This document shows positions 13,636-26,336 of a stretch of DNA of 64,000 nt, one piece after another. The DNA is taken from NCBI GenBank assembly GCA_035623075.1, contig DASPUC010000030.1:1-64000 (forward strand), read 5' to 3'. Every line of letters starts with the position of its first letter. Position 1 is the stretch's first letter. The stretch comes from Nitrospiraceae bacterium. Its GTDB lineage: Bacteria; Nitrospirota; Nitrospiria; Nitrospirales; Nitrospiraceae. Below the pieces are notes generated by a model that did not search any database, was not told the DNA's origin, and saw only the letters and a program-made list of their open reading frames with translations. A program made the position numbers and the translations under genes.

Positions 13636-14694
13636 ATGTTGCATCGAATGGCGCTGCGAGTGCTCCCCAGTTTGAGCTTGACCGTCACAGAGGAATCTGT
13701 GCGCAAGAAGAAGCGCCTCGTGATGTTCGTGCCGGGATTGGTTGCGTTCGGAGTCTATCGACTGGCCAAGCATCTGCTGCCATTGTCTGAGCCAGTTGTA
13801 CTGATGCTGGTCAGCGGGGCGGTTGCCACCGTGACATCGTTAATGGTCTATCGAACTGGTCGAGGGGAGCCCTGGCCAACAATCCTCCAACAGGACGGTA
13901 CTCGATTGCTGGCGTGGCTGGCCGGGTGGATCGGATTTGTCTATGGCGTGCAACTGTCGTTGCTCGTGCTGGCACTCCTCTGGCTGGTCGGCTATGACTA
14001 TTTGGCACATCCGGACGGGCCGGCGATGATGGCGATCATTATTTCGTGCACGGCCGTCGCGCGCGATACGTTTGAGATCGGGCACGTGCGAAAACTTTCG
14101 ATAATTGGCCGACCATTTCCGACCTTTCCTGACGGGGCCGCGCTACGAGTAATGATAGGGGATCGTTCGGCCCAACTCGGGCCCTGGTTGATTGCCGGTT
14201 TGGTCGTGGGCTCGCTTGGAGCCTGGCCGGCGAGTATGATCGCGGACAGCTACGTTGCCGTGCTTGTTCAGATTACGACTATCACGATCCTCGGTGGGGC
14301 CGTCGGGCTCTTTGCGTACTTCGGCGGGTTTCGATCGACCACTTCTTGGATGCGCGGGTTCGCGGAAACAAAAACCGGCGAGTTAGTCAAATATTGGTGG
14401 TGGCCGGGGCTCGCCTTTACGTCGACTTACTATCTGGTGGTGGTGGGAGCGTTGCTGTTTCTTGTCAAACAACCGACGATCTCCACGGTGCAAGCCTCTG
14501 TCGGCGGGAGTCTCGTGACCGCCATGATGGCGATCTATTGCTACTATCTCGGGTATCGTCGATCCATTGAAGAGCAACAAGGCCAGAGTCTGTCCGGCGC
14601 CGTGCTTCGTTGTCCGTTTGTCATGGGGATTCTCGGAAAATCCCCGAGTACCATGATGGCAGCCCCCGTCGCTCCTGGCTCGAAGGTCGTGTGA
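13636..14694 (+). CDS. Multi-pass membrane protein of unknown function
   Basis: 352 residues from the ATG at 13636; the ATG at 13615 lies in a repeat, and MALRV at 13648 is another option. None has a good Shine-Dalgarno sequence. There are roughly eight hydrophobic segments, such as LVMFVPGLVAFGVYRLA, IGFVYGVQLSLLVLALLW and a late YLVVVGALLFLVK. A His/Arg-containing loop (TFEIGHVRKL) sits in the middle. I do not recognise the family. Its TGA overlaps the ATG of bd-like oxidase paralogue 1 (TGATG), so the two are translationally coupled and probably functionally linked. Confidence 0.65.
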   Translation: MLHRMALRVLPSLSLTVTEESVRKKKRLVMFVPGLVAFGVYRLAKHLLPLSEPVVLMLVSGAVATVTSLMVYRTGRGEPWPTILQQDGTRLLAWLAGWIGFVYGVQLSLLVLALLWLVGYDYLAHPDGPAMMAIIISCTAVARDTFEIGHVRKLSIIGRPFPTFPDGAALRVMIGDRSAQLGPWLIAGLVVGSLGAWPASMIADSYVAVLVQITTITILGGAVGLFAYFGGFRSTTSWMRGFAETKTGELVKYWWWPGLAFTSTYYLVVVGALLFLVKQPTISTVQASVGGSLVTAMMAIYCYYLGYRRSIEEQQGQSLSGAVLRCPFVMGILGKSPSTMMAAPVAPGSKVV

Positions 14695-16562
14695 TGATAT
14701 CGCGCATGAGGGGTTTCTCAGTTTTCGGTGGGTCTGCTTCTCTGTTCGTGCTTGGTCTGTGGATTGGCTTAAGTCTAGGGGCACAGTCTTCATCAGCAAA
14801 CGATGCAGTCGATCTCTACTTCAACACGCCAGGGACGGTACAGGGACCGCCTGCACCATCTCCCGCAGAAACCACCTATACCCGTTACGGGTCCTTTGAC
14901 AACCGGCTGCTGGTCTGGTTCGTGACCCAACAACATACCTACTTCGGTGGATTTGTGTTGGCACTTCCGATCTTTTGCGTGCTGCTCGAATTTCTTAGAC
15001 TTATCACGAAAAAGTCGGCCTTGTCGCTTCGTTATGACGGACTCGCCCGCGATCTCGCGAAAGTCGCACTGCTGGCGCTTTCCATCACGGCGGTGGTGGG
15101 AAGCCTGATGCTGGCTCTGTTTATTTCTCTCTATCCGAGCTTCATGAAGTATATGGGCGGTACGTTCAAAGCCTTCATGCCGGCCTACGCGATCGTCTTT
15201 GTCAGTGAGTCGTTGCTCTTGATGATCTACTACTACAGTTGGAATCGTATGGCCGAGCCCGCGTTAAAGTGGATTCACGCGGCTATTGGCATTGTGACGA
15301 ACGTGTTCGGTACCGCGCTCCTTCTACTCGCCAATGCCTGGGCAGCCTTCATGATGGCACCGGCCGGGGTCGACGCGCAGGGCCGGTTTCTCGGCAACGG
15401 GTGGCATCTCCTGCATTCAGCCCTGTGGAATCCGCTGAACGTCCACCGCTTCTTGGCTGACATCATGTCGGGTGGCGCGGTTGTGCTGGCTTATGCCTGC
15501 TATCGCTTTTTCACCAGCAAGACGGATGAAGAGCGAGCCTATTTCGATTGGGTGGGCTACATCTTTATCTTTGTCACGGTCTGCGCACTCCTGCCGATGC
15601 CGATTGCCGGCTACTGGCTCATGCGATCCGTCTACGCGTTTCGTCAGAGCATGGGCGTGACTATGATGGGGGGGTTGCTCACGTGGCTCTTCGTCGTGCA
15701 GGCACTCTTGATTGGGGCGCTATTTCTCGGCATCAACTATTACATCTGGCAGAGCATGGCCCGGATCCGAGGCGGGGAACGCTACCAAACGTATTACCAG
15801 ATCTTACTGGGAGCCCTAACGCTCGCGTTGTTTATTTGGCTCACACCTCACACAGTGATGATGTCGGCGAGCGAAGTGAAGGCTATGGGCGGCGCGCAGC
15901 ATCCCGTCGTCGGGAACTATGGAGTGATGTCGGCCAAGAACGGCGCTATCAATATTATGATCCTTATCACGACGTTGAGTTTTATCTATTATCGGCGGGC
16001 AAATCGTACAATGGTCGTGTCGTGGGCCACGAAGGGGAACATCCTGATCGGAGCGCTCTTTGTGCTTGGCGCCATCAATATTATCTGGCTCTCCATTTAT
16101 GGGTTCTATCTGCCGGCCAAGCTCCGCGTTGGTTTGTCCACACCGCAGGCCTTTACGACTCTGACGGTGATTGTGGCGAGTGTGATAATTAATCGTCTTA
16201 TGCTCAAAGGCGCCGTCGTGCACGGTCCGATTCAGTGGGGGAAAATTTCCATGCGCGGGATGGTGGGTCTGTTCGGGTTGGCCGCTGCTTTCTCATGGGT
16301 CATGGGACTGATGGGCTATATTCGTTCGTCCGGACGTCTGACATGGCATGTCAATGAAGTGATGGCTGATGTCTCTCCATGGGCCTTCACGCCGAATTTG
16401 GAATTTGCGGCGAAGATGGTCACGCTGAATATGGCGGTGTTCTGGGGAGCCGTGCTCACCGTGTTCTGGATGTGCCAGCGAGGACAGCAGCCGGTGATGG
16501 GAGAAGAGCCGAGTGAAGAGAAGGCGACGACGCTGGCCCCGTCTTCGTCACAAGAAGCGTGA
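14694..16562 (+). CDS. Cytochrome bd-like oxidase subunit I, paralogue 1
   Basis: 622 residues, about 14 membrane helices. The ATG at 14694 overlaps the upstream TGA; a longer frame exists but would overlap the previous gene. It has an N-terminal signal-anchor, then VTQQHTYFGGF (His81), a membrane Glu172, the run GWHLLHSALWNPLNVHRFL with several His, and TPHTVMMSASEVKAMGG followed by QHPVVGNYGVMSAKNG. These match the second paralogue at 20112 along the full length and the bd-type subunit I family. Compared with that paralogue, two His are Pro here (Pro163 and Pro567). No subunit II gene is near. It is probably a terminal oxidase or a related quinol/cytochrome-interacting protein. Confidence 0.8.
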   Translation: MISRMRGFSVFGGSASLFVLGLWIGLSLGAQSSSANDAVDLYFNTPGTVQGPPAPSPAETTYTRYGSFDNRLLVWFVTQQHTYFGGFVLALPIFCVLLEFLRLITKKSALSLRYDGLARDLAKVALLALSITAVVGSLMLALFISLYPSFMKYMGGTFKAFMPAYAIVFVSESLLLMIYYYSWNRMAEPALKWIHAAIGIVTNVFGTALLLLANAWAAFMMAPAGVDAQGRFLGNGWHLLHSALWNPLNVHRFLADIMSGGAVVLAYACYRFFTSKTDEERAYFDWVGYIFIFVTVCALLPMPIAGYWLMRSVYAFRQSMGVTMMGGLLTWLFVVQALLIGALFLGINYYIWQSMARIRGGERYQTYYQILLGALTLALFIWLTPHTVMMSASEVKAMGGAQHPVVGNYGVMSAKNGAINIMILITTLSFIYYRRANRTMVVSWATKGNILIGALFVLGAINIIWLSIYGFYLPAKLRVGLSTPQAFTTLTVIVASVIINRLMLKGAVVHGPIQWGKISMRGMVGLFGLAAAFSWVMGLMGYIRSSGRLTWHVNEVMADVSPWAFTPNLEFAAKMVTLNMAVFWGAVLTVFWMCQRGQQPVMGEEPSEEKATTLAPSSSQEA

Positions 16563-18599: not shown

Positions 18600-19532
18600 A
18601 TGCTTGAAACGAAATTCAAGGTCGCGTTTCTTCTTGTCGTCCTTGCCTTCGCTGCGATGCCCATCATAGGCATTCTCAGTGGCACGAAACTGACCCCCTT
18701 TGAGGAATCGCCTGAGGCGACGCCAGAGTCATCTCTGCCCGGATTGGCCGGACCTGCTGATGACAAGCCGATTCAAAAGGACATGGTTTCAATTTCAGCA
18801 GGTCCCTTCATTCGCGGAACGGACTCGGGCGGTTTTGACGAGCGACCTCAGCGGACTCTTGTGCTGAGCGCCTTTGCCATTGATCGGTACGAAGTCACCA
18901 ATTTTCAGTATCAGCAATTTGTGGATGCGACGGGTCATCGCAAGGCCGGACCGCCCTCACGCTATGCCAAGAACATGGGCAAGATGCGAGGTATCAATCA
19001 ACCTGTCGTCTATGTGTCGTGGGAGGATGCGGAATCCTATTGTCGCTGGAAAGGTAAACGCCTTCCAACGGAAGCCGAATGGGAAAAAGCCATGCGAGGC
19101 ACTGACGGTCGGCTGTGGCCATGGGGCAACAGTGAGCAAGCGAATGGAGCGAACTGGGCACGCGTTCAAGACGGGTACGATGTGACGGCGCCAGTTGGTT
19201 CGTTCAGGAACGATCGGAGTCCCTATGGCGTCATGGACGGGGCGGGGAACGTGATGGAATGGGTTCAGGACTGGTACTCGGAAAGTTATTACAAAGACGT
19301 GTCCGACCAGAACTCTCAGGGACCTGAATACGGGGTGTATCGAGTGTTACGGGGAGGGGGGTACACGACCGCTGGGGGGGACATCCGTATAACCAGCCGG
19401 AGCAAGATGGTGCCAGATTTTCGCGATGAAACAATCGGCTTTCGCTGTGCCGTTTCAGAGGGGCAAAACGAGGTAGGAAAGGGGGTCAAAAACCGCGGAG
19501 AATCTACAGAAAATCAAAGTAGTAGAGAATGA
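18600..19532 (+). CDS. Membrane-anchored SUMF1/FGE-like protein (copy 2), catalytic Cys absent
   Basis: 310 residues, starting 6 bp after copy 1. An N-terminal helix (VAFLLVVLAFAAMPIIGIL) anchors the same fold: MVSISAGPFIRGTDSGG, EDAESYCRWKGKRLPTEAEW, NVMEWVQDWYSE and VLRGGGYTTAG. As in copy 1, the catalytic Cys pair is missing between RGGGY and the closing ETIGFRCAV. The pair probably arose by duplication and may form a heteromer facing the periplasm next to the oxidase. The C-terminal tail is polar and charged. Confidence 0.8.
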   Translation: MLETKFKVAFLLVVLAFAAMPIIGILSGTKLTPFEESPEATPESSLPGLAGPADDKPIQKDMVSISAGPFIRGTDSGGFDERPQRTLVLSAFAIDRYEVTNFQYQQFVDATGHRKAGPPSRYAKNMGKMRGINQPVVYVSWEDAESYCRWKGKRLPTEAEWEKAMRGTDGRLWPWGNSEQANGANWARVQDGYDVTAPVGSFRNDRSPYGVMDGAGNVMEWVQDWYSESYYKDVSDQNSQGPEYGVYRVLRGGGYTTAGGDIRITSRSKMVPDFRDETIGFRCAVSEGQNEVGKGVKNRGESTENQSSRE

Positions 19533-19552
19533 GAAACACGGCCAAAATTATA

Positions 19553-19581
19553 TTGACAACCATTCCGGCCAAAACTATAAT
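19553..19581 (+). promoter_or_regulatory. Consensus sigma70 promoter of the second bd-like oxidase operon
   Basis: TTGACA (19553-19558) and TATAAT (19576-19581), both perfect, are separated by exactly 17 bp. The predicted start near 19588 gives a leader of about 140 nt before the first 40-residue protein. A perfect promoter in this GC-rich sequence predicts strong constitutive expression. Confidence 0.85.
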
Positions 19582-19730
19582 GTCGAACAATTTTGAATTC
19601 TTATCCATGGATTTCTCGATTTTTTTGCTCTCCAACGAGGAATTTTCAATAGCACACGGGTACCTGCGTGTCAAGAAACTCACCCGCATGAACCACTCTT
19701 TTGTGTTCTCACCAGAAGAAGGGAGAATCG

Positions 19731-19853
19731 ATGGCAACGGCAACTGCAGATAGTGAACTCAAGGTCAAGATTGGGAAGATGATCTTCTATATTACCTGTG
19801 CGGTGGGCCTGTGGTTCTTCTATTGGTTCGCTGGCGTTCAGTGCCCCTGCTGA
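19731..19853 (+). CDS. 40-residue single-TM protein A (possible oxidase small subunit)
   Basis: ATG at 19731 with GAAGAAGGGAGA just upstream, stop TGA at 19851-19853. The product starts MATATADSELKVKIGKM, passes one membrane helix of about 18 residues with aromatic residues (GLWFFYWFAG) and ends VQCPC. The tail Cys pair is notable and could bind a metal or form a disulfide. It is the first gene after the consensus promoter and lies 62 bp before a second small protein. Size and topology recall CydX/CcoQ-type oxidase accessory subunits, but no sequence match to those is claimed. Confidence 0.7.
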   Translation: MATATADSELKVKIGKMIFYITCAVGLWFFYWFAGVQCPC

Positions 19854-19915
19854 TCGGGGCCACTGATTCTGCATAACAAAGGATGCGAATGTCTCGTTAG
19901 CGAGGAGGGAGTGAC

Positions 19916-20038
19916 ATGGGGCAGACGATTTTCTACATTCTGATTTCGACCGTCGTATGCGTGATTTATTTTACGATTGTGGATCACTTTTTAATGGATA
20001 TGCAGGGGCTGGATTATTGGTACTTATTCCGCAAGTAG
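19916..20038 (+). CDS. 40-residue single-TM protein B (possible oxidase small subunit)
   Basis: ATG at 19916 with GAGGAGGGAG at 19902-19911, stop TAG at 20036-20038. It starts directly with a membrane helix (MGQTIFYILISTVVCVIYFT) and ends in an aromatic, charged tail (LDYWYLFRK). It is the same length as protein A with the opposite arrangement: tail after the helix rather than before. It lies 73 bp upstream of the bd-like oxidase gene. The excellent ribosome site and context support a real gene; function is inferred as small subunit or assembly factor. Confidence 0.7.
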   Translation: MGQTIFYILISTVVCVIYFTIVDHFLMDMQGLDYWYLFRK

Positions 20039-20111
20039 CCCTGGTCAGGACAATGTTGTTCGAGGAATACATGACTCCATTTACATTTGAATTGCATCAA
20101 GGAGGTATCCC

Positions 20112-22022
20112 ATGGGTCTCGTAACCCGTAAAAAATTATTCTCAATCATGGCGCTGGGCGCGATGGTTGGCCTCCTCCTTCTCCCAATTGCTGTGTCGAT
20201 TCCGTCGCTGGCCATTGGCGCGGATGCAGCGGATGCGGTGAAAAAGGAAGGTGAGGCAAAGGTCGAGAAAGGGCGCGACGTCTACTACAAAACGGAAGGC
20301 ATCGTGGTCGGTGCTCCTGCTCCGAAAACGACGGATAGTCCCAAGGACTATCCTCGTTATAATTTTGAGAGCCGCGTTCTTCTTTGGTTCGCGAACCAGC
20401 AGCACCTCTACTATGGGAGTTTCGTTCTAGCGGTTCCGATCTTCTGTATGATCATCGAATTTATGGGGGTGGTGACCAAGGATAAGGCGCTCGCGAAACG
20501 CTACGATCAATTGGCCTATGACTTCGTCAAGATCAGCTTGACGGCCTACTCGCTGACCGCAATTCTCGGTGGTATCCTGATCTTCACTTTCCTGACGCTC
20601 TATCCGGCCTTCTTCGGCTATCTCTCCAGCATCTTCCGGCCCGTCATGCATATCTATGCCTTGATGTTCGTGGCGGAGAGCGGAACCCTCTACATCTACT
20701 ACTATGGCTGGGACAAGATGAAGGAAGGCTTCCTGAAGTGGATGCATCTGAGCATGTCCGTGATTTTGAACGTGATCGGGACCGTGCTCATGTTCTTGGC
20801 AAACTCCTGGATTGGATTCATGATGTCGCCGGCTGGAGTCGATGAACAGGGCCGGTTCCTCGGAAATATCTGGCACGTAGTGCACACCGCGCTGTGGAAT
20901 CCGTTGAACGTTCACCGCATCCTCGGAAACATGGCATTTGGCGGTGGTGTCGTGGCTGCCTATGCCGCCTACAGATTCCTGGCATCCAAGACTGACGAAG
21001 ACCGGGCCCACTATGATTGGATGGGCTACATCGCAATGGCGATCGGTGTCGCGTTCTTGATCCCGTTGCCGTTCGCTGGTTATTGGCTGATGCGGGAAGT
21101 GTATGCGTATCGGCAACAGATGGGAATTACGCTCATGGGCGGCCTCCTTGCCTGGCTCTTCATTATTCAGGCGACCATGATCGGCATCCTCTTCTTGAGC
21201 TCGAATTATTATCTCTGGCAGGCACTCGGCCGGATGCGCGGCGCCGAGAAGTATCAACGCTATATCAAGTATCTCGTCTTTCTACTGGTGTGCGGGTTCC
21301 TGGTGTTCATCACGCCGCACACCATGGTCATGACCCCAGCCGAGTTAAAAGCGATGGGTGGTCAGCAACACCCCGTCCTTGGCAACTACGGTGTGATGTC
21401 GGCCAAGAACGGCGGCATCAACGTCATCATTACGACCACCGTCCTGAGCTTCATCTGGTACATGCGAGGGAATAAGGTCTCGACTGTATCGTGGTCCAAG
21501 TTCGGGAACATCTTCATGGGAGTGTTCTTCTTCTTTGCCTACGTCAACATCATCTGGTTGGCCATTTACGGGTACTACATTCCCGCCAATGTTCGAGTTG
21601 GTCTGTCTGTGCCCCAGGTGGCCACGACGCTGTCCTGTCTCTTCTTCATGACTACCTTGAACGGGTTCATGATGAAGGGAGCGAAACAGATGGGGCCGAT
21701 CGAATGGGGCAAGATTTCCGCTCGGTCTCAGTATGCCTTGATCATGTTGGCAACCGCATTTACCTGGATGATGGGGTTGATGGGCTATATTCGCTCATCG
21801 GTCCGCCTCTTCTGGCACGTGAATGAGATCATGCGGGACAATTCGCCGTGGGCCTATACCCATACAGTCGGCTTTGCCGCGAACATGATTTCATTCAACG
21901 TGTTGTTCTTCTGGGTCAGCATCCTGTTCGTCTTCTGGCTCGGCAGCTTGGGTGCTAAGAAAGCGCCGGTCGAAGCCAAGGCAGCAGTTCCTGGCGGCGC
22001 ACCGCAACCGGCTGCTCACTAA
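20112..22022 (+). CDS. Cytochrome bd-like oxidase subunit I, paralogue 2
   Basis: 636 residues, about 14 membrane helices, AAGGAGGT at 20099-20106. The N-terminal signal/anchor is followed by a periplasmic stretch and then ANQQHLYYGSF (His98), PVMHIYALMFVAES (His180, Glu189), NIWHVVHTALWNPLNVHRIL, TPHTMVMTPAELKAMGG with QHPVLGNYG, and WHVNEIMRDNSPWAYTHTVG (His584). The many conserved His exceed the ligands used in classical bd oxidase and could hold extra haem or copper, an inference. No subunit II gene is nearby; the neighbours are two tiny membrane proteins and three cytochromes c. It probably receives electrons from cytochrome c and reduces oxygen. Confidence 0.85.
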   Translation: MGLVTRKKLFSIMALGAMVGLLLLPIAVSIPSLAIGADAADAVKKEGEAKVEKGRDVYYKTEGIVVGAPAPKTTDSPKDYPRYNFESRVLLWFANQQHLYYGSFVLAVPIFCMIIEFMGVVTKDKALAKRYDQLAYDFVKISLTAYSLTAILGGILIFTFLTLYPAFFGYLSSIFRPVMHIYALMFVAESGTLYIYYYGWDKMKEGFLKWMHLSMSVILNVIGTVLMFLANSWIGFMMSPAGVDEQGRFLGNIWHVVHTALWNPLNVHRILGNMAFGGGVVAAYAAYRFLASKTDEDRAHYDWMGYIAMAIGVAFLIPLPFAGYWLMREVYAYRQQMGITLMGGLLAWLFIIQATMIGILFLSSNYYLWQALGRMRGAEKYQRYIKYLVFLLVCGFLVFITPHTMVMTPAELKAMGGQQHPVLGNYGVMSAKNGGINVIITTTVLSFIWYMRGNKVSTVSWSKFGNIFMGVFFFFAYVNIIWLAIYGYYIPANVRVGLSVPQVATTLSCLFFMTTLNGFMMKGAKQMGPIEWGKISARSQYALIMLATAFTWMMGLMGYIRSSVRLFWHVNEIMRDNSPWAYTHTVGFAANMISFNVLFFWVSILFVFWLGSLGAKKAPVEAKAAVPGGAPQPAAH

Positions 22023-24495: not shown

Positions 24496-24551
24496 TCGTC
24501 TGCCAATGCAACAGTTCATATTGACCTACGAGATATATTATGAGGACAACC

Positions 24552-26336
24552 ATGAAGAATCGGTGGGTTAGTAAGAAGGCAGGTCTCGTGCTTGCCTCAG
24601 CTTTTGGACTTGTGATGCTGTCCGGGAGCACAGGGATGTGGGTTCATGCCCAGGAAGCCGTTCCTGAAGGCTTCAAGAAAGGCGATCTCGCGCCTGAACC
24701 AAAGGCAGAAATGATTGAAGCCGGGAAGCGGGTTTACTTTACGAAGTGTGTCTGGTGCCATGGAGTCGATGGAGCTGGCGACGGTCCGGGGGCTGACCGG
24801 CTGTGGCCGCGTCCCCGGAATTTTAATCAGGGGACGTTCAAGATTCGGCATACGGCCAGCGGCGAATTGCCGTTGTTTGACGCGGCGAAGCCGGTCCCTG
24901 GTCAGAACGATCTCTTTGAGACCGTCACCCACGGTCTGCCTGGGTCTGCCATGCCGTCGTGGGAAGGTATTTTGACGGAAGAGCAGCGGTTGCAAGTGCT
25001 CTCTTTCGTGACCACGCAATTGGTGAAGGATCGAAAGTTTACAGACAAGCAAAGCGAAACGCAGACTATTCTCCAGCTAGCCGACCTCAAACCGAAACAA
25101 GCCTCGGAAGAGAGCCTGAAGAGAGGGTCCGAACTGATCGTTGAAAAAAAATGCATCGAATGTCATGGCACGGAAGGCCGTGGTGATGGGAACGCGTTCA
25201 ACTTAAAAGACGATTGGGGCTTCGCAATCCAACCGGCCAACTGGCACAAATGTTGGAACTTCCGCGGGAGCCGGCAAGATCCGTACAACGTGACGAACAT
25301 CTTCCGGACCTTTTCAACCGGCGTGAACGGCACCCCCATGCCGTCGTTTGCAGACAATACCAGTATTGATGAACGATGGGATATCGCGAACTGGGTGAAC
25401 TTCCTCTGTGAAAGAGATAAGGAGGGAAAGCCACTTCCGATCGATCCTCTGACAGACAAGCCGAAGATCAACTTCGTGGTCCCAGCAGCTCTTGTGCCTG
25501 AAGGCGGAGAGATTTCAAACGATCCCGAAAATGACATGTGGAAGAATGCCCCACGCCGCTATGTGGCCATGGGTGGTCAGATCACCCACAAGCCCAGAAA
25601 CTTCGTGAATCGTATCGACGATATCTGGGTCAAGGCTCTCTATAACGACAAATCCCTCGTCTACCTATTTGAATGGGATGACCGGACCAAGAGTGTTGCA
25701 GAAGGTAAGCTGCCTTGGGCTCCGATCCAAGTTAACTTGGACATCAAGGAGCAGGATCCTAAGACTGGAGAGGAAGGTTCCATTGCCGCGAACCAGAACA
25801 GGTACAAGGTGTACAACGACGCCATTGCGGTTGAGCATCCGGTGAAGTGGAAAGAGCTTCCGGCTCCCATTAAGCCACGGTTCCTGTTCGGCTCGAATGA
25901 GCAGTATCCCGTCGATATCGTGAAATGGGAAGCTGATGGGTCGATCCGGGCCTTCAAAGGAACCGGCTGGGACAAGGATTTTGAAGAACGTGACACCTAT
26001 GAGGAAAATCTCAAGGTGCTCAAGGCAGAATGGAAGAACGGTCGGTGGTACGTCATGATCCAAAGGCCGCTTGGTAACAAGAAGGACCAGGACTATGACG
26101 AGGACACGTTCTTTGAAACAGGGCAGTACATCCCCACAGTGTTCTTTGCATGGGATGGTCACAACGGGGATGCAGGTCGAAAGATGGCTGTGTCAGCCTT
26201 CTACTACACCTTCCTCGAGCCACCGATTCCGAAAGAGACCTATATCTATCCCGTCGTCATCGCGGGAGGAGTAGTCTTGTTGGAAGGATGGATTCTGACT
26301 CGTCGTGTGAACAAAAGAAAAGGCAAGACTCTCTAG
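24552..26336 (+). CDS. Dihaem cytochrome c fused to an ethylbenzene-dehydrogenase-type haem-b domain
   Basis: 594 residues from the ATG at 24552 (GAGGA at 24542); an ATG at 24540 is less well placed. After a signal peptide, two cytochrome c domains carry CVWCH at 66-70 and CIECH at 201-205, with Met-containing AMPSWEG and MPSFADN regions. From about residue 300 the protein resembles the gamma subunit family of ethylbenzene dehydrogenase/NxrC; the closing FFAWDGHNGDAGRKMAVSAF aligns with the ERNGMKA region of the NxrC-like protein at 42914, where a Lys ligates haem. One membrane helix and a basic tail end the protein. It is an unusual single-chain link between haem c and haem b. Confidence 0.8.
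   Translation: MKNRWVSKKAGLVLASAFGLVMLSGSTGMWVHAQEAVPEGFKKGDLAPEPKAEMIEAGKRVYFTKCVWCHGVDGAGDGPGADRLWPRPRNFNQGTFKIRHTASGELPLFDAAKPVPGQNDLFETVTHGLPGSAMPSWEGILTEEQRLQVLSFVTTQLVKDRKFTDKQSETQTILQLADLKPKQASEESLKRGSELIVEKKCIECHGTEGRGDGNAFNLKDDWGFAIQPANWHKCWNFRGSRQDPYNVTNIFRTFSTGVNGTPMPSFADNTSIDERWDIANWVNFLCERDKEGKPLPIDPLTDKPKINFVVPAALVPEGGEISNDPENDMWKNAPRRYVAMGGQITHKPRNFVNRIDDIWVKALYNDKSLVYLFEWDDRTKSVAEGKLPWAPIQVNLDIKEQDPKTGEEGSIAANQNRYKVYNDAIAVEHPVKWKELPAPIKPRFLFGSNEQYPVDIVKWEADGSIRAFKGTGWDKDFEERDTYEENLKVLKAEWKNGRWYVMIQRPLGNKKDQDYDEDTFFETGQYIPTVFFAWDGHNGDAGRKMAVSAFYYTFLEPPIPKETYIYPVVIAGGVVLLEGWILTRRVNKRKGKTL

Follow-up and report, generated by a model that had tools for sequence, protein, structure and literature searches.

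The main finding of this analysis is a set of three conserved and seemingly uncatalogued microproteins, S1, S2 and S3, which are encoded beside the bd-like gene BD3 in a Nitrospiraceae DNA stretch of 64,000 nucleotides (the window). We consider it likely that each of the three is a so far unrecognised accessory subunit, with a single helix, of a bd-like complex linked to NXR. The preliminary description of this DNA had proposed two small membrane proteins, encoded downstream of a perfect-consensus promoter, as possible new oxidase subunits. Both proteins proved to be genuine, but the set comprises three members including S3, homologues of which also occur in other phyla. The promoter was found at exactly the claimed site, though not in free intergenic DNA: it lies within the conserved minus-strand gene of S3. 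The earlier idea was right in direction and missed S3, the promoter overlap and the breadth of the distribution.

Table 1. Features of the BD3 locus with their positions in the window.
Feature	Position	Strand	Description
S3	19504..19608 (stop codon included)	-	34-aa single-helix microprotein gene, antisense to P+
P+	19553..19581	+	TTGACA-N17-TATAAT, perfect sigma-70-type consensus; predicted transcription start near 19588
P-	19646..19674	-	TTGACA (19674-19669), N17, extended -10 TGC TATTGA (19651-19646); faces P+; presumed S3 promoter
S1	19731..19853	+	40-aa single-helix microprotein; C-terminal Cys-Pro-Cys invariant in Nitrospiraceae
S2	19916..20038	+	40-aa single-helix microprotein; C-terminal motif (V)DHxLMDxQGLDxWYLFRK
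BD3	20112..22022	+	636-aa bd-like oxidase subunit, CydA fold; published as bd-like_3
C1	22098..23417	+	membrane-anchored c-type cytochrome; conserved after BD3
C2	23458..24495	+	membrane-anchored c-type cytochrome; conserved in cluster
Alternative NxrC	24540..26336	+	two cytochrome c domains and an ethylbenzene-dehydrogenase-type heme b domain; EB_dh 3.1e-11, DMSO_red_II_gam 7.5e-20

For the conservation analysis we sampled 147 Nitrospiraceae genomes and pooled the substitution statistics over 62 distinct loci. S1 was found in 132, S2 in 129 and S3 in 135 of the 147 genomes. In nearly all genomes that miss S1 or S2, BD3 is absent or lies at the end of a contig, and every genome without S3 is also without a BD3 orthologue. 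The pooled pN/pS was 0.138 for S1, 0.251 for S2 and 0.117 for S3, and no in-frame stop was encountered. Between 55 and 69% of the differences fell on the third codon position and most other frames were full of stops. The low pN/pS values, the third-position changes and the absence of in-frame stops show that all three are protein-coding. A chance origin of the S1 and S2 ORFs is excluded because both recur across these genomes with coding-type substitution patterns. The preliminary description had named conservation among relatives with the oxidase as a check on its proposal, and conservation is what we observed.

S1 and S2 each consist of 40 aa plus a stop codon with one hydrophobic stretch. 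Shine-Dalgarno-like sites are located at 19720-19725 (AGGGAG, S1) and 19903-19908 (AGGAGG, S2), which confirms the two 40-residue single-helix ORFs with ribosome sites that had been described directly before the bd-like gene. The translation of S3, taken from a listing of short frames on both strands, is MDKNSKLFDIIVLAGMVVNIILAVFLILYYFDFL. Within the Nitrospiraceae, S2 carries the invariant motif H..M..QGLD.WY and S3 the invariant residues F-D-I-I-V-L..G...V-N. For S1 we dropped the Cys-Pro-Cys end as a universal feature: it is confined to the Nitrospirales, outside of which the protein often ends in His, and in many lineages it has neither. In some genomes further S1-like genes were encountered far from any BD3 (L115-L122), one of them (L120) near cupredoxin and squalene/phytoene synthase genes; their products have an acidic extension at the N-terminus and end in the same ...NGIQCPC.

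In agreement with what had been stated for S1 and S2, none of the known small-subunit families searched in Pfam, NCBIfam and PDB could be assigned. S1 had no sequence match in these three databases and S2 no credible one, PDB sequence searches with the profiles of all three microproteins gave nothing credible, and none of the three showed a credible profile match to CydX or the other known small-subunit families in the same databases. There is also no clear relationship among S1, S2 and S3 themselves (hhalign probability 25% or less). A search for natural fusions with BD3 or with one another found none; what looked like fusions came from S1 sequences that cross-matched the S2 profile weakly and from a run of N. 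A literature search confined to open-access papers returned no description of S1-S3 in the text available, so an earlier mention elsewhere is possible.

BD3 matches Pfam PF01654 (Cyt_bd_oxida_I) with 1.6e-14 and 53.8 bits at a curated cut-off of 26.2. The best matches of its structure model (pLDDT 80.6) are CydA chains with Z of 30-33 and 344-359 residues aligned, compared to lower Z values for the membrane subunits of alternative complex III. His98, His212, His268, His403, His420 and His569 are invariant in 55 sequences and are possible heme b ligands. By cluster content BD3 is bd-like_3 of Nitrospira moscoviensis, and by cluster position the alternative NxrC corresponds to alt_NxrC_2 of the same organism. 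According to PMC6606698, bd-like_3, alt_NxrC_2 and the two cytochromes c are among the 40 most transcribed genes of N. moscoviensis and their products were proposed to form a complex. The Nitrospina genome paper (PMC3578206) counts 14 helices in the bd-like protein, reports that the canonical quinol site (Q-loop) is absent and calls the role enigmatic, and that BD3 works as a terminal oxidase is accordingly doubtful in the literature. On the strength of that account we use "oxidase" for BD3 as a convention and not as a demonstrated function. As the preliminary description had observed, no CydB gene is located beside BD3, whose neighbours are the cytochromes c and the NxrC-like gene. Such a partner is not expected, as the bd-like proteins of Nitrospira are treated as relatives of OR-N, of the CydAA' type (PMC10839748, PMC12342949). 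The same conserved gene block holds a second CydA-like (bd-like) paralogue, BD4 (14694-16562), which is about half identical to BD3, has no small ORFs upstream and is possibly a CydA'-type partner.

BD3-like proteins were detected in 146 of the 147 Nitrospiraceae genomes. We compared the regions from 20 genomes of many genera, covering every genus with a sufficient contig among the fetched regions, and observed one fixed order: FGE2, S3 (backwards), S1, S2, BD3, C1, C2, NxrC. S1 and S2 always stand directly before BD3 in the family. When the search was extended across the phylum, the sister family showed S1 at its BD3 gene, and other families of the class had weaker S1/S2 matches ahead of their BD3 homologues (60-67% identity). 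In further classes of the Nitrospirota the order is S3-S1-S2-BD3-C1-C2-NxrC with all genes on one strand, and because S3 is co-directional there we assign it to the same unit as S1, S2 and BD3.

For a wider test we built profiles of S1-S3 from these sequences and applied them to 80 BD3-type loci of named organisms, which belong to Nitrospirota, Nitrospinota, Proteobacteria and Mariprofundus. Within 1.3 kb before the BD gene we detected 54 matches for S1, 65 for S2 and 43 for S3, compared to only 1, 1 and 10 in the other 784 kb; the S3 matches elsewhere include several sulfur-oxidiser loci in which S3 lies ~4 kb upstream. S1 and S2 always point in the same direction as BD, S3 is backwards in 24 loci and forwards in 17, and C1, C2 and NxrC follow BD in nearly all of the 80 loci. 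The hosts include Gallionellaceae, Nitrosomonadales, Acidiferrobacteraceae, Alphaproteobacteria, Deltaproteobacteria, Mariprofundus, Sedimenticola and Thiodiazotropha. In the distant phyla the individual matches are weak and their assignment as homologues relies on position. Most Nitrospinota loci with the same BD/C1/C2/NxrC cluster were without detectable S1-S3 (L176, L177, L179, L182, L187), and a search for small transmembrane ORFs in the Nitrospinota loci lacking matches yielded nothing convincing. The trio is thus either dispensable somewhere or diverged beyond detection.

In a FastTree tree of 137 BD proteins the microproteins go with the BD3-type genes. We found no S1-S3 beside BD4, beside two OR-N1/N2-like paralogues on contig C3 or beside recent duplicates of BD3. 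These duplicates (L148, L171-L174) are about 75-82% identical; L171 adjoins a molybdopterin oxidoreductase and an FGE-type gene, and L174 adjoins multicopper-oxidase-like genes. One Nitrospirota family (L164-L166) has a different bd-like type, which precedes C1, C2 and NxrC at L164 and L165 and has no S1-S3. In other phyla (L226, L197, L188, L245) the cluster neighbours include PCP_red domains joined to radical SAM or Usp and, in Sedimenticola, an SCO1-type protein, all of them possible maturation factors.

P+ matches the vegetative sigma-70 consensus in 12 of 12 letters with 17-bp spacing. The site had been called rare, and this holds: it is the sole perfect match with a spacing of 16-18 in the window, 100 dinucleotide shuffles gave none, and base composition predicts 0.0085 such sites per 64 kb and 0.45 per genome. 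There are 7 in the genome as a whole, compared to 0 for a reversed-pattern control, and the six others are located on contigs C8, C19, C22, C26, C29 and C49. P+ is letter-perfect in all 62 distinct Nitrospiraceae loci and identical in each of the 6 loci from a second family, giving 68 of 68 for the order Nitrospirales. Its conservation and position suggest that it drives the S1-S2-BD3 operon. P-, the presumed promoter of S3 by its motif and place, is present as TTGACA-N17-TGnTA (extended -10) in 60 of the 62 loci at -61 to -84 from the S3 start, mostly at -62 to -69; TTGACA alone would be expected in 1.9 of 62 shuffled S3 upstream stretches.

Two of the alternative explanations concern the overlap of P+ with S3. 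That the TTGACA/TATAAT match is a by-product of S3 codons and no working promoter is suggested by its location entirely within the coding part of S3, where it falls on Ile-Ile and Val-Val-Asn codons. However, the codons under the hexamers, Ile10 ATT, Ile11 ATA (rare), Val17 GTT and Val18 GTC, are fixed and their four wobble positions are constant in 67-68 of 68 loci, whereas the neighbouring Ile20 (ATA/ATC/ATT) and Val24 (GTG/GTC/GTA) vary. Furthermore, S3 homologues outside the Nitrospirales have similar residues yet match P+ in only 4-9 of 12 letters, and we regard the by-product explanation as very unlikely. The reverse case, an untranslated S3 ORF whose DNA is conserved merely as a promoter region, draws on the overlap with a perfect promoter that is fully conserved in the order. 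It is extremely improbable, as the changes outside the hexamers fall on third codon positions of the minus-strand frame, with the pN/pS given above and no stops in 62 loci, and as other phyla have S3 homologues next to BD3 that lack the promoter and in many cases lie on the opposite strand. Because P+ is fixed in the Nitrospirales and absent from S3 genes elsewhere, the simplest history would be that S3 is older and that P+ apparently arose within the pre-existing gene in an ancestor of the order. At one locus (L064, G093:C99:2006-2155) the N-terminal half of S3 is tandemly duplicated in frame together with the embedded promoter, which could be real or an assembly error.

The remaining alternatives concern what the proteins do. 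S1 and S2 are located between a promoter and BD3 with short gaps, as would regulatory leader peptides or ORFs for translation coupling, which serve the expression of BD3 through their sequence and not as proteins. Against this, their amino-acid sequences are conserved (pN/pS 0.14-0.25), they are recognisable across phyla despite different upstream DNA, S1 is also present unlinked to BD3, and a conserved membrane helix is not a usual trait of leader peptides; we judge this explanation highly unlikely. The main rival is that S1-S3 are transient assembly factors, or factors for heme or metal insertion into BD3 and the cytochromes, and not subunits. They are encoded together with the complex, the C-terminal CPC of S1 in the Nitrospirales, often His elsewhere, could carry a metal, one Sedimenticola locus has the SCO1-type protein beside the cluster, and there are unlinked extra copies of S1. 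On the other hand, none of the three is large enough to act as an enzyme, the C-terminal Cys/His of S1 is missing in many lineages and three separate single-helix chaperones for one complex would be unusual. We therefore consider assembly factors improbable, though a more serious candidate than the explanations above.

Accessory subunits are the best explanation because of the strict association with BD3, the shared orientation in deep lineages, the small size and the single helix of each protein. We infer this status from the co-occurrence of the genes, their synteny and the topology of the proteins; membership in a complex, the topology itself, the activity of the promoters and any interference between P+ and P- are likewise read from sequence. 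Several observations count against subunits: the trio is mostly undetected in the Nitrospinota, S3 is ~4 kb away in several sulfur-oxidiser loci, S1 has unlinked copies in some genomes and no natural fusion with BD3 was found. The proposed complex would consist of BD3, the two membrane-anchored cytochromes c, the NxrC-like heme protein and S1, S2 and S3. The charge distribution predicts an inside N-terminus and a periplasmic C-terminus for S1 and S3 and probably the opposite orientation for S2. Most likely the three helices would pack against BD3 and the cytochrome anchors and stabilise the complex and its heme sites, and they would thereby support the passage of electrons between the membrane chain and an electron donor in the periplasm, which in Nitrospira is NXR. 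In the Nitrospirales P+ would transcribe S1-S2-BD3-C1-C2-NxrC and P- would transcribe S3 backwards. As the two promoters face each other, the predicted transcripts would be complementary over about 50 nucleotides at the 5' end, and a polymerase starting from one promoter would have to cross the other. A bolder reading, which we put forward tentatively and hold to be doubtful as a whole, combines two parts: S1-S3 would form an unseen three-helix layer of small subunits in a complex common to nitrite, iron and sulfur oxidisers, and the face-to-face promoters would act as a built-in switch controlling how much S3 is made relative to the rest of the complex, via polymerase interference and 5'-end pairing.

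Small subunits of this kind have precedents. The CydX, CydS and CydH, CcoQ, CcoM and CtaJ types resemble S1-S3 in having one short hydrophobic helix, 30-45 residues and a gene that lies beside that of an oxidase and was missed by annotation; S1-S3 likewise have a single helix, fewer than 50 aa and genes placed with the oxidase. In contrast to these types they match no sequence family, are three different proteins instead of one and go with a bd-like protein that has no CydB-type partner. The usual place of the CydX gene is on the other side of the large-subunit gene. That bacterial enzymes of the CydA fold carry single-helix small subunits such as CydX has been described (PMC4325964). The published bd-like_3/alt_NxrC_2 cluster of Nitrospira, Nitrospina and anammox bacteria has the same order of BD3, two cytochromes c and alternative NxrC and was described as a possible NXR-linked membrane complex (PMC3578206, PMC6606698). 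The available text of these accounts mentions no small subunits, whereas we found three, and the range observed here extends to Proteobacteria and Mariprofundus. The OR-N-type CydAA' proteins, thought to accept electrons from cytochrome c, are like BD3 CydA-like, are without the quinol site that is also reported absent from bd-like oxidases, and have several paralogues in the Nitrospirota (PMC10839748, PMC12342949). The literature places the bd-like proteins of Nitrospira in OR-N; the OR-N1/N2-like paralogues of this genome differ in being without microproteins. The antisense overlapping genes ano and laoB of E. coli O157:H7 (PMC5960689, PMC5810103) likewise place a coding frame over functional DNA of the other strand, but the overlap of S3 and P+ is one of a microgene with a promoter, not of two genes, and is conserved across an order.

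As an example this overlap is a clean one: a promoter was apparently born inside an existing microprotein gene, the codons of which were then frozen, and the case illustrates how such genes evade annotation. S1-S3 accompany a bd-like gene in nitrite-oxidising Nitrospira and in many bacteria that oxidise iron or sulfur. The bd-like/NxrC complex belongs to the most transcribed systems in a Nitrospira according to PMC6606698 and stands at the junction of nitrite oxidation and the respiratory chain. S1-S3 are probably overlooked parts of this key respiratory complex; they offer new handles to purify, label and model it, and the trio is also a marker of related complexes in oxidisers of iron and sulfur.
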